Made by a program: the position numbers and the translations under genes
Source of the DNA: Riemerella columbina
GTDB lineage: Bacteria; Bacteroidota; Bacteroidia; Flavobacteriales; Weeksellaceae
Reading direction: 5' to 3'
Length of the DNA: 64,000 nucleotides
Assembly: GCF_030517065.1 (NCBI RefSeq)
Contig: NZ_CP103950.1
Span: 248,001-312,000 of the forward strand
Part shown: positions 18,544 to 22,596 of the stretch, piece after piece
Numbering within the stretch: position 1 is the stretch's first letter
How the letters are laid out: every line of letters starts with the position of its first letter
Notes under the pieces: generated by a model
Database searches by the model: none
Seen by the model: the letters and a program-made list of their open reading frames with translations, nothing else
Told to the model about the DNA's origin: nothing

Positions 18544-20913
18544 TTAAAAACTGATATCTACCCCAGCATAGACATTCGCGTTCATAATAGGAGTATAGAC
18601 CATACCGCCATCAAAGTAGTTGCCAAAAGGGTTTTCAGCATCTATAATCGGTTGTGGCTGGTGGTAAGAAGTCAGATTTTCGGCACCTAAATAAATGCGG
18701 ACTTTCTCGTTGAGGTGTCTGGCAATTTGGGCATTGAGCAACGCATACGGCTTGGAATAAGAAGGCAATTGAAAAGCCTCAGGATTTTGCTGAGTGAATG
18801 GCAATCGCTGTTTTCCAATGTATTGCAGCGTAGCATCAAAATTCCAATAACCGCCTTTTTCGTTCTTCGTGGTAGAATAGCTGGCGTTAAAAAAGCCTCT
18901 ATGCTTGGCTACAAACGGAATTTTGCGCCTTCCGCTTTCATAATCAGCCCAAACATCATAGTATTTATAAGCCAACCGAAGTTCTAAGTTTTGGATAGGG
19001 CTCCAGTCCAATTGGGTTTGTAGTGCATTGGCTTTAGATTTTCCATCTAAATTATAAAAAATAATTTTGTGGGTAGAAGCATCTAAATCCGTGAGCACTT
19101 GGCTGCTAAAATCGGTTCTAAAAATATCCGTTACCCACGATACCTTTCTACCGAAAAGTTTAAACTCTTGCTGAAGGCTGGCGCCATAATTCCACGCGAT
19201 TTCTGGCTTTAAACCATAGATTTTGCCATCGTTGGCTTTAATTTCTATACTTCTATTAGAGGCAAAATAGCGCTGACTTTCTGCAAAAATATTAGCCGTT
19301 CTAAAGCCACGCCCAGCACTCAACCTAAGCACGGTTTTGGGCGTAAGGTCGTATTTAAAATTTAACCTTGGCGAAACTTGTGTGCCTGCCAGATTATGAA
19401 AATCGGAGCGAAGCCCTGCCACAAGTGTCCAGTTTTCGCCCGTAGTGGTGTATTCGGCAAAAATGCCAGGCACCGTTTCCGTGCGACTAAAATTTTCGGT
19501 GAGGTAGGTTTCATCATAATGATCGTAGAGGAAACTCGCGCCCACTTTATATTTATGATTGGTATTGCCGATGATGCTTTCAAAAATCAAATTGGAATAA
19601 AAAGAAGTTTCTTTTCCTAAATAATTTCGTTTTCCGAAGAAGCTATCTTGCTGATGATAAGTGAATTGGTTCATCCAGCCAAGGCTTTGATAAGGGCGGT
19701 TGGGGAAGACAAAACCCGTTTTGTTCCACAGCTGTACTCTACCAATATTGATGCCCACACCATAAAGCGATTGCTCGCTCTGAGGGCGTTGCCAGTCGTA
19801 GCCTTTTTGCCCTGCTTTCCTTTCATCTCTAAGGAAATTGATACCAAAATGACTGCCCCAACCTGTGTGTTCTAAATCGCTATAATTGAGGAGATAAGTG
19901 GCGTTCAGCTGATGACCTTTGGGCTGGTCTAAGAAGCCATCTTTATTTTGATCCATTTCCGTAAAAGTGCCATTGGCGTGGAGCAATAGACTTTGGTTCC
20001 AATGGTGGGAAAGTAGCGTGGTATTGGTTACATTGAGCTCCGTTCTGCCATTGCCATCGGCAAAAATATTGAGGGTAGACTCTGGTTTTTTGTTCAGTTT
20101 TACCAACTCGGTGTTGATTTGCCCTGTAATACTTTCGTAGCCGTTAACCACAGTGCTACCACCTTTGGTCAGTTGTATGCCGCCAATCCATCTCCCAGGG
20201 ATAAAGTTGAGCCCATAGGCAGTTGCTAAACCACGAATTTCAGGCAATAATTCCTTGGTGAGGGCGGTGTATTTTTGGTCTAAACCGAGCATTCGGAGTT
20301 GCTTGGTGCCCGTAACGGCATTGCTAAACGAAACATCTACGGTTGCATTGGTTTCAAAACTTTCGGAAAGGTTACAGCAAGCGGCTTTAAGAAGTTCCTT
20401 GCTGCTGATATTAAAGGTTAATCCGACCTCTTTTTTGCGGAGCGCTGTGGCTTCTTTTAGTTTGGTCAAGGTAATCCGCTCTATATTTTTTTCATCTTTC
20501 TTATCTTTTTGATGTTGATGTGCGGGGTGGTTTTGATGCTCTATTTTGATGCTATCTTCTTTAAGATTTTTCTCAAAATCAGAAGGTTTTCTGGTATAAA
20601 GACAGCACTCGGGCAGTTGCTCGTACGCCTCTTTTGGGGCGGTGAATAGGGCATTGTCGTATCCAGCCTCCGCTACAGCTTTTAAGACTTGCTGTTCGGT
20701 AACAGGCGCCTCGGTTTCAAAGGTTAACAATTGGGTTTCCATATCCCAATGGGCGGTTTTTGCCCCTGCGTTTTTGGCAGTTTTTTCGATGCGTTCTTGG
20801 CACTCTCCACAATCTCCATTTACAAAAACAGTATGCGGTGTGCTTTGTCCAAAAGACCACCCATAAACCAACAGCAAGGCAAAAACCCATAGGTTTCTGA
20901 CAGTATTTTTCAT
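18544..20913 (-). CDS. TonB-dependent receptor with N-terminal heavy-metal-associated (HMA) domain
   Basis: Outer-membrane active transporter of 789 residues. A signal peptide (about residues 1-23, ending SFGQ) is followed by an HMA-type domain with metal-binding C35-G-E-C38 and a tail bearing C103-C104. A His-rich linker (residues 126-134) comes next, then a TonB plug (roughly 145-275) with another CC pair (AACCNLSES), then a 22-strand-type barrel ending in a C-terminal Phe. The HMA domain stands where most Bacteroidetes receptors carry a CarboxypepD_reg domain. It matches the stand-alone protein encoded 37 bases upstream in Cys spacing and in AGYDN and CC-Y-R tail motifs. Transport of copper or another soft metal is inferred from domains and neighbours; the substrate is not shown. 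Confidence 0.88.
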   Translation of the reverse strand: MKNTVRNLWVFALLLVYGWSFGQSTPHTVFVNGDCGECQERIEKTAKNAGAKTAHWDMETQLLTFETEAPVTEQQVLKAVAEAGYDNALFTAPKEAYEQLPECCLYTRKPSDFEKNLKEDSIKIEHQNHPAHQHQKDKKDEKNIERITLTKLKEATALRKKEVGLTFNISSKELLKAACCNLSESFETNATVDVSFSNAVTGTKQLRMLGLDQKYTALTKELLPEIRGLATAYGLNFIPGRWIGGIQLTKGGSTVVNGYESITGQINTELVKLNKKPESTLNIFADGNGRTELNVTNTTLLSHHWNQSLLLHANGTFTEMDQNKDGFLDQPKGHQLNATYLLNYSDLEHTGWGSHFGINFLRDERKAGQKGYDWQRPQSEQSLYGVGINIGRVQLWNKTGFVFPNRPYQSLGWMNQFTYHQQDSFFGKRNYLGKETSFYSNLIFESIIGNTNHKYKVGASFLYDHYDETYLTENFSRTETVPGIFAEYTTTGENWTLVAGLRSDFHNLAGTQVSPRLNFKYDLTPKTVLRLSAGRGFRTANIFAESQRYFASNRSIEIKANDGKIYGLKPEIAWNYGASLQQEFKLFGRKVSWVTDIFRTDFSSQVLTDLDASTHKIIFYNLDGKSKANALQTQLDWSPIQNLELRLAYKYYDVWADYESGRRKIPFVAKHRGFFNASYSTTKNEKGGYWNFDATLQYIGKQRLPFTQQNPEAFQLPSYSKPYALLNAQIARHLNEKVRIYLGAENLTSYHQPQPIIDAENPFGNYFDGGMVYTPIMNANVYAGVDISF

Positions 20914-20950
20914 AACGAAAAGGTTTAAAATCGGTTAAAAAATGATGATG

Positions 20951-21343
20951 TTATTGGACTTCGCAGGTTTGTCCTTTGTGTGTGACTTCCTCGTGTTTGC
21001 CTTCTGGGCGCTTGTACTGGCAGCATTGATGGAGTTTGCCATAGGCGACATCTCCCGCTCTATACAATTCATTGTCATAGCCCGCATCTGCCACTTTTTT
21101 CAAAATGGCTTTTCGGTTGGTTTTTTGAGTGTCGTAGGTAAAAGTAAGGATTTTGGTATTTTTATCCCAAGTGGCAGCTACTACATCTGGTTGATTGATA
21201 GCTTTTTCAATTGTTTTTTTGCACATTCCGCAGTTGCCATAAACTTTTGCGGTTTCAGTTTTAGCATTGCTGATTTGCGCTGAAAATAAGGTGGTTCCCA
21301 TACTGAATAGGAAAACCAAGGTATATTTAAAAAGATTTTTCAT
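20951..21343 (-). CDS. Secreted HMA-domain protein, probable periplasmic metal chaperone
   Basis: A 130-residue protein with a signal peptide (about 1-22, ending LFSAQ) and one HMA-like domain with C38-G-M-C41. The second half has ADAGYDNELYRA and a C107-C108 pair, then a Cys near the end. The distance from the first Cys to the CC pair is 69 residues, against 68 in the N-domain of the adjacent TonB receptor, so the two are relatives. It probably binds Cu(I) or a similar ion in the periplasm and may pass it to or from the receptor. It sits between the receptor and the Cys-rich gene, all co-oriented. Confidence 0.82.
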   Translation of the reverse strand: MKNLFKYTLVFLFSMGTTLFSAQISNAKTETAKVYGNCGMCKKTIEKAINQPDVVAATWDKNTKILTFTYDTQKTNRKAILKKVADAGYDNELYRAGDVAYGKLHQCCQYKRPEGKHEEVTHKGQTCEVQ

Positions 21344-21417
21344 TTTTTATAAGTGTTAATTTAAGATAAAACTGAATGATAAGACCCATTCTGAATGGCG
21401 TCTATTTTTATTTTAAA

Positions 21418-21774
21418 TTAACTGATTTTAGGCGGTTGCCAAATCTCTTTTAGCGGGTTAGGCGGTAAAAAATGAAGGTAAAAATCTACCACCATATGGT
21501 TGGCAATTTCCTTTTTTTCTTTAGCGATGAAATCTTTTTCAGTTTGTACAATGCCCATAGAAACCACAGGTGCGTGGCAGGTGGCACAGTCTGAACTGCA
21601 ATGCTCTTGTTGAGGCGTGTGCTTCTCTTTTTTATGCGATGAACAACAGTCGGTTTTGGTTGTTTTTATGGTGCAACAATCGGTGGCAGAAAATAGCATA
21701 GCAACATTAGATTTAGGGTAAATAAAGAAGCCTAAACCGATCATCATAAGCCAGATGGATATTTTCTTTGCCAT
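21418..21774 (-). CDS. Cys-rich HYC_CC_PP-type protein of the metal module
   Basis: A 118-residue protein with an N-terminal hydrophobic segment (about residues 7-30). A Cys/His/Lys-rich centre contains two CC pairs (DCCTIK and DCCSSH) and CSSDCATC, and it ends in FLPPNPLKEIWQPPKI. This pattern fits the Bacteroidetes HYC_CC_PP family, which tends to occur beside HMA proteins and TonB receptors. The abundant thiols suggest metal binding in or at the membrane; the function is otherwise unknown. A -7-like TACATTTG lies at 21785-21792 on the minus strand, so this may be the first gene of the three-gene unit. Confidence 0.75.
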   Translation of the reverse strand: MAKKISIWLMMIGLGFFIYPKSNVAMLFSATDCCTIKTTKTDCCSSHKKEKHTPQQEHCSSDCATCHAPVVSMGIVQTEKDFIAKEKKEIANHMVVDFYLHFLPPNPLKEIWQPPKIS

Positions 21775-21801
21775 TTTGATGCTACAAATGTATAAAATAT
21801 T

Positions 21802-22596
21802 TTATAATTCTATAGGGTTGTTTTCCTTTTTCATATTTTCTTTGAAGGTTTCTTCCACTTTTTTTCTTGCGGCACCATCGTTAATTTGTATTCTCGCTCT
21901 CCCAGAGTTGTTGATGAAAGAAAGTGGATTTTCCTTATAGCGTTGTTCTTGTTTCAGATAGTCTTTTTTCTCAATTTCTATGGCAGGGCGCCGCGAGGAA
22001 AATACCGCAGGAGCTTCCACCTTTTTGCTTTCTTTTAGGTCAAAACTATAATCGCCTTTATCATCTTCCACTTTTACGATCAGTCCTGGAAGTCCGTAGA
22101 ATTTATAGGGTCCATCAGGCAGAGGAATATCCATCGTAAACCACGCGTACCAAAGTCTTCCGCCATATTGTGTTTTCGCTTTTTGAACGGTATATTCTCC
22201 AATTTTGGAGGTTTCTGGCAACACCTCCCAAGTCATCGGTTGGGTTTCTTTGTAAAGATATTCATCAGCGCCCAATCGGTTTTTAAAGGTGACCAAAGCT
22301 TGCGGGTAGTCTTTGGATACCACATAATTAACCTTGGTGCGGTAGTTTTCCATACTACTTCTATCAAAATTGAAATTTTTAGTTTCTCGCATTTTGGTCA
22401 TCACCGAATCTCTTTGAAATCTCTTCTCCGAGTAGAAAATAGAGTGCTGCCCTGTAATATCTAACACCACATTTTCGGTTACGGTTTGCTCTCGGTTGGT
22501 GGTGTCTGGCTTCATTCTTAGCTCATAAATAAAGCGCGTGGTTTGTGCGGCACAAAATTGAAATCCTAATATTAAAATTAAAATGGAGGCTCTCAT
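21802..22596 (-). CDS. GLPGLI family protein
   Basis: A 264-residue secreted protein of a Bacteroidetes-specific family named after the GLPGLI motif, here in YGLPGLIVKVEDDKGDYSF near residue 165. A signal peptide covers roughly residues 1-17. The function of the family is unknown; many copies occur per genome and a second one lies at 54.9 kb here. It ends 27 bases before the Cys-rich gene of the metal module, so read-through into that operon is possible, but no metal-binding motif is seen. Confidence 0.85.
   Translation of the reverse strand: MRASILILILGFQFCAAQTTRFIYELRMKPDTTNREQTVTENVVLDITGQHSIFYSEKRFQRDSVMTKMRETKNFNFDRSSMENYRTKVNYVVSKDYPQALVTFKNRLGADEYLYKETQPMTWEVLPETSKIGEYTVQKAKTQYGGRLWYAWFTMDIPLPDGPYKFYGLPGLIVKVEDDKGDYSFDLKESKKVEAPAVFSSRRPAIEIEKKDYLKQEQRYKENPLSFINNSGRARIQINDGAARKKVEETFKENMKKENNPIEL

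Follow-up and report, generated by a model that had tools for sequence, protein, structure and literature searches.

In Bordetella pertussis, a TonB-receptor operon begins with the gene for the small protein CruR, which senses copper while still a nascent chain (PMC9426467); the arrest of CruR at its RAPP motif was later demonstrated in vitro (PMC12992588). CutF resembles CruR and uses a stem-loop located behind its open reading frame (ORF); a survey of CutF-like leaders counts Bacteroidota among the carriers and TonB-like proteins among the neighbours (PMC9973294). In Porphyromonas, one table names an HMA gene and HmuR without connecting them (PMC6417203). Here we have analyzed a stretch of 64,000 nucleotides (nt) of the Riemerella columbina genome (NCBI RefSeq assembly GCF_030517065.1, contig NZ_CP103950.1, positions 248,001 to 312,000; hereafter the window), whose minus strand encodes, one after the other, a cysteine-rich protein, a secreted stand-alone HMA protein, and a TonB-dependent receptor that itself begins with an HMA domain. 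We propose that this locus is probably an outer-membrane TonB-dependent copper importer controlled by a copper-sensing nascent chain. The plug would give up Cu(I) to the tethered HMA domain, which would deliver it to the free HMA protein. No HMA-fused TonB receptor was described in the titles and abstract openings that were searched, mostly outside the subscription literature.

Among the closest described systems is the CruR-CrtA (BfrG) operon of B. pertussis (PMC9426467, PMC12914433), in which a small exported cysteine protein with the same layout (CxxC, 45 residues, xxPP, three residues) likewise precedes a TonB receptor. However, the leader of the window lies outside the DUF2946 threshold and carries WQPP instead of RAPP, the receptor behind it has an HMA domain and lacks the OprC motif, and no PepSY gene was seen in the three-gene set. 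The gap following the leader is 74 nt long and predicted to fold, whereas CruR is followed by a gap of 162 nt and makes use of Rho. The leader also agrees with the filters applied to CutF-like leaders (PMC9973294; fewer than 150 residues, PP among the 15 C-terminal ones, and a following gene in the same orientation no more than 1000 nt away), since it has 118 residues, PP three residues from the end and a gap of 74 nt. As for CutF, the start is signal-peptide-like (by eye) and a stem-loop follows the ORF, but the sequence family is different and an HMA-fused receptor stands behind it. With OprC of Pseudomonas aeruginosa (PMC12914433, PMC11213822) the receptor would share copper uptake by a TonB receptor, although CxxxM and HxM are replaced here by an HMA domain and a plug cysteine pair. 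The HMA domain has the fold and the CxxC of the CopZ/MerP metallochaperones, from which it differs by an extension closed by a CC pair and by its attachment to an outer-membrane receptor. Finally, HYC_CC_PP (NF047658) and DUF6660 (PF20365) proteins resemble the leader in gene position and in being cysteine-rich with PP, but the leader matches neither model. The class of leader is already known; its IWxPPK form, the covarying stem and the tie to an HMA-receptor family were not found described.

The receptor consists of a signal-peptide-like start, an HMA domain, a disordered His-containing linker, a divergent plug for which Pfam lists no Plug family at E 1, and a barrel (Table 1). The Pfam score of the HMA domain is 24.5 bits (E 3.6e-5), 0.3 bits under the cut-off of 24.8. 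The initial annotation had assumed an HMA fold for this N-terminal domain, and structure prediction bears this out: residues 24-125, modeled with AlphaFold from an alignment of 48 domains, adopt the ferredoxin-like HMA fold with its CxxC at a predicted local distance difference test (pLDDT) score of 90, the last strand being only a short bridge. The model superimposes on CopZ (2qif) with a Z score of 10.6 over 66 residues and a root-mean-square deviation of 1.1 (VIA-align), and on MerP (1osd) with a Z score of 10.0; a second CopZ structure (6ff2) was matched by Foldseek with E 1.3e-4. In the model of the whole receptor, the pLDDT values are 87-95 for the HMA domain and about 76-93 (blocks of ten) for the barrel, mostly above 80. 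The residues that had initially been noted are all present, namely C35-x-x-C38, CC103-104 and AGYDN in the receptor and C38-x-x-C41, CC107-108 and AGYDN in the neighboring protein, and CCxYxR is common to both. A BLASTP alignment of the free and the receptor HMA domains, 82 residues long, shows 43% identity (E 1e-21 in one comparison), and the free protein passes the Pfam HMA cut-off (PF00403; 33.5 versus 24.8 bits).

The receptor contains exactly six cysteines, which form three pairs: CxxC 35/38, CC 103/104 and CC 179/180. The last pair, in the plug, is kept in all 33 aligned receptors, including those without an HMA domain; so is H312, and H506 is retained by 31 of them. By comparison with BtuB, we would place the plug pair directly behind the TonB-box region, at or close to the periplasmic face. 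The receptor would take up copper or a copper chelate using TonB energy, and copper coming through the barrel would meet the plug pair, move on to the HMA domain (CxxC and CC), which a flexible linker tethers, and finally reach the free HMA protein. In this way Cu(I) would never be loose in the periplasm. The clients would probably be periplasmic cuproprotein assembly, for instance that of heme-copper oxidases; the genome (2.04 Mb, single contig) holds two COX1-family matches, one of which follows an ATPase-like gene that weakly matches HMA. A hand-over of a soft metal between receptor and chaperone had been suggested initially. The tethered HMA domain with its free paralogue fits this proposal, copper being the most likely metal. 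The interchange of free and fused domains, the HMA linkage in other families and the metal context of the sister loci, all given below, agree with this reading. We infer both the metal and the direction of transport; CruR in front of a TonB receptor is a precedent for the import of copper.

The cysteine-rich ORF is, by analogy, probably a copper-sensing leader of the CruR/CutF type and not a transport component. It shows a hydrophobic start, a cysteine cluster, C63-x-x-C66, a stretch of 45 residues, WQPP, three residues and the stop, with seven cysteines in all. The initial annotation had placed it in the HYC_CC_PP type as a third component of the set. This assignment (NF047658) was rejected because NCBIfam gives no such match, and the anatomy, the promoter box and the stem-loop fit a leader; a true HYC_CC_PP gene does occupy the same place in Flavobacterium (L132, E 1.7e-38). 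Copper bound to the cysteines of the nascent leader would change ribosome pausing at IWQPPK near the C-terminus; through the stem-loop beyond the stop, pausing would raise or lower the expression of the two downstream genes. Since we read the locus as an importer, copper would more likely lower expression, as for CruR in front of an importer, than raise it, as for CutF.

A profile built on 19 relatives detected the leader ORF in 106 of 120 Weeksellaceae genomes at E <= 0.1, often in several copies. Among the 94 profile hits in the loci that were read, one was a wrong-frame ORF and another had PP 11 residues before its C-terminus; IWxPPK plus one to four residues terminates most of the rest, a few having V or F for I, and the C-terminal variants comprise PPN (L158), PPQ (L185) and IRLPPK (L169). 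Ends in WNPPK, WHPPK or WYPPK were also seen (L162:7081-7458, L189:6997-7425, L028, L029, L120); there the residue before PP varies and W, PP and K are constant. In 49 receptor loci, many of them closely related, the spacing from CxxC to xxPP is 44-46 in 45 cases and 42 in one, three leaders having no CxxC. Across 90 leaders, chosen for PPK near the end and including close relatives, W and PPK are conserved with a single exception (R for W), whereas the synonymous codons vary, and the peptide therefore appears to be under selection. In the same leaders, Ile following PPK is encoded by ATA in 64 of 69 cases (20.5% in receptor genes), and CCG encodes the first Pro in 68 of 90 (24.6% in receptor genes), a bias that could reflect a slow codon or an RNA constraint. 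Other affiliations of the family were tried. DUF2946 was matched by one of the 19 relatives, below its cut-off (E 0.089); CzcI and DUF6660 were discarded, each giving a single weak match among the 19 (E 0.0017 and E 0.52). A profile comparison with six outgroup leaders joined 11 columns of the signal region only (probability 44) and thus does not establish common descent of the two leader types.

In a set of 108 loci (18 from Weeksellaceae including that of the window, 10 from other families of the order and 80 further ones, some genomes being present twice), 104 have a leader upstream of the receptor by a loose rule of cysteines and PP. As to transcription, the motif TAnnTTTG, the Bacteroidota -7 box, occurs within -90 to +60 of the called start in 100 of 104 leaders, against 11.9 expected from single-base shuffles. 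In many Chryseobacterium leaders it is located at +26; in these, the start was probably called too far upstream. With the box so near the start, the leader is probably transcribed from a promoter of its own, the 5′ end of its mRNA being very short; this would hold also where a co-oriented gene lies close upstream.

The region following the leader stop is predicted to be structured. In the 93 loci of this set that have a leader in range, the 60 nt after the stop gave z < -1 at 52 of 61 IWxPPK loci and at 30 of 32 HYC-type or other loci; for comparison, sequence within the receptor gene did so at 8 of 61 and 8 of 32 loci, respectively, and the last 60 nt of the leader at 17 of 61 and 4 of 32. 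A stem search returned 40 of the 108 loci at a score of at least 10, with 2.8 expected from single-base shuffles. In 31 Chryseobacterium-like loci, picked by eye for a visible stem from 49 fused loci with a leader (the 18 omitted include some with the stem elsewhere or none), the stem starts mostly 11-14 nt after the stop and is often followed by a U-rich stretch. In this alignment 95.3% of the cells are paired and 8 of 9 pairs show double changes, while slid versions reach 21-53%. The 74-nt gap of the window is predicted to fold similarly. Seventeen loci chosen from 21 of Flavobacterium type (L125, L137, L142 and the leaderless L147 were omitted) share a different stem at or next to the stop, with 92.8% paired cells, double changes in 6 of 10 pairs and 42-55% in slid versions. 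In the HYC-type stem of Flavobacterium (L132:5658-5714, L148:5786-5851), the 5′ arm begins at the stop and the 3′ arm ends shortly before the receptor start.

These data bear on the possibility that the cysteine-rich protein is a genuine third component, a periplasmic copper buffer acting with the HMA proteins. Its signal-peptide-like start and seven cysteines would suit such a role, which we nevertheless hold to be improbable. The protein is poorly conserved outside its cysteine motifs and the C-terminal IWQPPK (18-43% identity to the window protein among relatives, against 55-73% for the receptor), it precedes the receptor almost throughout the 108 loci together with a promoter-like box, a covarying stem follows it in the chosen sets, and it heads operons of several types.

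The last point was established on 40 regions picked by us among the matches listed, to which the second copy of the window's genome was added (41 loci, 44 leaders). Twenty-two leaders precede an HMA protein, mostly with DUF3347, and 12 an RND pump, either directly or after one or two small genes; three stand before a multicopper oxidase (directly or after small genes), three before the present receptor, and four at a contig end or before other genes. Metal-handling genes are thus found downstream of 40 of the 44 copies. Ten downstream proteins were checked with Pfam, giving DUF3347 twice, HMA-MauE, multicopper oxidase three times (once with HMBD), an HMBD P-type ATPase, ACR_tran-OEP, DoxX and one small protein without hit; the others were assigned by likeness. 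In the first DUF3347 protein, HMA fell short of E 0.001 in Pfam (E 0.009 in the genome search) and was seen with our own profile. Examples of leaders in front of an RND pump are L184:7066-7395, L194:1523-1846 and L195:1534-1875. The L184 copy matches DUF6660 above its cut-off (E 3.3e-10), which suggests that DUF6660 proteins are metal leader peptides. In the genome of the window, the second leader (G000:C1:557447-561749 = L199:4448-8750) heads HMA-DUF3347, HMA-MauE and multicopper oxidase genes; being one of the 19 profile rows (L002), its detection by the profile is not independent. That locus adjoins transposase-like fragments and has a nearly identical copy in a congener (L156), and it looks mobile.

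Many of these sister loci resemble tolerance operons, as would be expected if the present locus also served copper tolerance, the receptor HMA domain and the free HMA protein forming a periplasmic copper sink and the receptor carrying something else. We give this explanation little credit: the plug CC pair is retained in the receptor family even without HMA, the genome possesses a separate leader-headed multicopper-oxidase locus, and TonB receptors move their cargo inwards.

The association of receptor and HMA domain was followed across genomes; it holds and is not due to chance. In Weeksellaceae, the family of the organism, 110 of 120 genomes have a receptor match at E <= 1e-60, of which 87 run through the HMA domain, 22 begin after it and one is a fragment (hand count from the listed starts). 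In the set of 108 loci, 47 receptors carry two HMA domains, 23 carry one and 38 none; 27 of the latter have an adjoining HMA gene under a strict distance rule that misses some. A phylum-wide sample of 198 genomes contained 57 with a match at E <= 1e-80, in 50 cases below 1e-100; the seven weakest have scores close to that of a paralogue in the window's genome (5.4e-84) and are perhaps not this receptor. Among the best-scoring 27 loci outside Weeksellaceae, one of which (L209) is also among the 108, HMA is fused in two, adjacent in 23 and neither in two. A leader is present in 20 of these 27, not counting a candidate in L217 that proved identical with the HMA protein. The link of the receptor family with HMA genes, by fusion or adjacency, reaches well outside Weeksellaceae.

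This linkage also bears on the nature of the cargo. The receptor might import another soft metal or complex (silver, zinc, a metallophore or heme), copper binding by the HMA domains serving only to protect the periplasm. The absence of the OprC motif would be in line with this, as would the nearest solved relatives of the barrel by sequence, which are ferric-enterobactin, siderophore and colicin I receptors, and the best NCBIfam match of the free HMA protein, which is MerP (E 2.2e-9, below cut-off). We regard such a cargo as unlikely, since HMA is fused or adjacent in 25 of the 27 outside-family loci, and sister leader loci contain a multicopper oxidase in the window's genome and oxidases, metal ATPases and pumps in Weeksellaceae.

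In a tree of 125 HMA domains built on 87 columns, with many forks unresolved, the free HMA protein of the window groups (98/90) with the fused HMA domains of three congeners lacking a free copy alongside, and with the free HMA proteins of Soonwooa and Epilithonimonas and the HMA domains of DUF3347-type proteins. The fused domain of the window falls among other fused domains, and in one genome (G007) the free and fused copies are near-identical. From the grouping of the free protein with fused domains, the two forms seem to have replaced each other. Fusions outside Weeksellaceae (L131, L149, L032, G136 = L218, G223 = L215) suggest several origins; L131 and L149 meet on long branches, and G136 (L218) and G223 (L215) are outside the tree. 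Whether import, delivery and control by IWQPPK and the stem-loop form one unit in several Bacteroidota lineages, with recurrent fusion of a neighboring HMA gene, is a broader proposal that we put forward tentatively, as somewhat less probable than not.

Several observations weigh against a copper importer under nascent-chain control. The plug is modeled with low confidence (pLDDT below 50 for most of residues 173-274), so that the position of its CC pair is not visible, and neither copper pattern of OprC (CxxxM, HxM) is found in the receptor. The leader has no hit to DUF2946 (PF11162) nor, in NCBIfam, to HYC_CC_PP. In leaders of other operon types the CxxC-to-xxPP spacing is mostly not 45, often none or about 60 and in some 41-43, and in the HYC-type leaders of Flavobacterium PP stands 12-16 residues before the end, so that a pause there would not reach the stem. 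A co-oriented gene is found no more than 100 nt upstream of 56 of 100 leaders with enough flank (nine more have too little), and read-through from upstream is possible, including from the GLPGLI-family gene 27 nt away in the window. The hairpin of the window has no clear U-run, and a post-stop hairpin is not seen in some relatives. Finally, a fixed-window hairpin scan gave a weak result, with starts at 11-17 nt in 16 of 64 cases against 28 of 192 shuffles and 3 of 44 in other operons; it used even window lengths only and so missed stems of 23 nt.

The coordinates of all features are collected in Table 1. The intergenic gaps measure 27 nt between the GLPGLI-family gene and the leader, 74 nt between the leader and the free HMA gene, and 37 nt between the latter and the receptor. 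The GLPGLI-family gene (21802-22596) thus stops 27 nt ahead of the leader and is co-oriented with it; one like it precedes the leader in a congener locus (L013) and also in L025 (by eye).

Table 1. Features of the locus, in window positions and in order of transcription.
Feature	Position	Strand	Evidence or remark
GLPGLI-family gene	22596-21802	minus	TIGR01200 E 5.7e-54; first in order of transcription
TACATTTG, TAnnTTTG match, -18 from leader start	21785..21792	minus	Promoter-box scan of leaders
Cys-rich leader ORF, 118 residues	21418..21774	minus	Proposed CruR/CutF-like nascent-chain copper sensor
CATC motif, leader residues 63-66	21577..21588	minus	C63-x-x-C66
IWQPPK motif, leader residues 111-116, near C-terminus	21427..21444	minus	P-P-K invariant in 19/19; codon usage in 90 leaders
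Predicted hairpin 14 nt after leader stop	21382..21403	minus	Fold of 74-nt gap, -9.3 kcal/mol
Secreted stand-alone HMA protein, 130 residues	20951..21343	minus	C38-x-x-C41 and CC107-108; Pfam HMA E 5.5e-8, 33.5 bits
TonB-dependent receptor, 789 residues	18544..20913	minus	ORF; Pfam TonB_dep_Rec_b-barrel (PF00593) E 5.4e-28, HMA E 3.6e-5
Receptor HMA domain, residues 25-90, C35-x-x-C38	20644..20841	minus	N-domain model; CopZ/MerP structural matches
CC pair 103-104 closing the HMA extension	20602..20607	minus	Invariant together with CxxC in 48/48 aligned HMA domains
Linker from HMA to plug, residues 110-153, His-containing	20455..20586	minus	Predicted disordered, pLDDT <50, about 30
Plug CC pair, residues 179-180, motif KAACCNLSESFETN	20374..20379	minus	Invariant in 33/33 receptors
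Barrel region, residues 336-747	18673..19908	minus	Pfam match

Copper import in Bacteroidota seems to be poorly described, and the receptors analyzed here would provide a widespread candidate copper receptor family for this phylum. They would link receptor and chaperone physically, and the combination of a leader with an RNA switch predicts the way in which the operon senses copper. The same reading suggests a function for the Cys-rich and HYC_CC_PP proteins encoded in front of such receptors, and for the DUF6660 proteins encoded in front of metal pumps.

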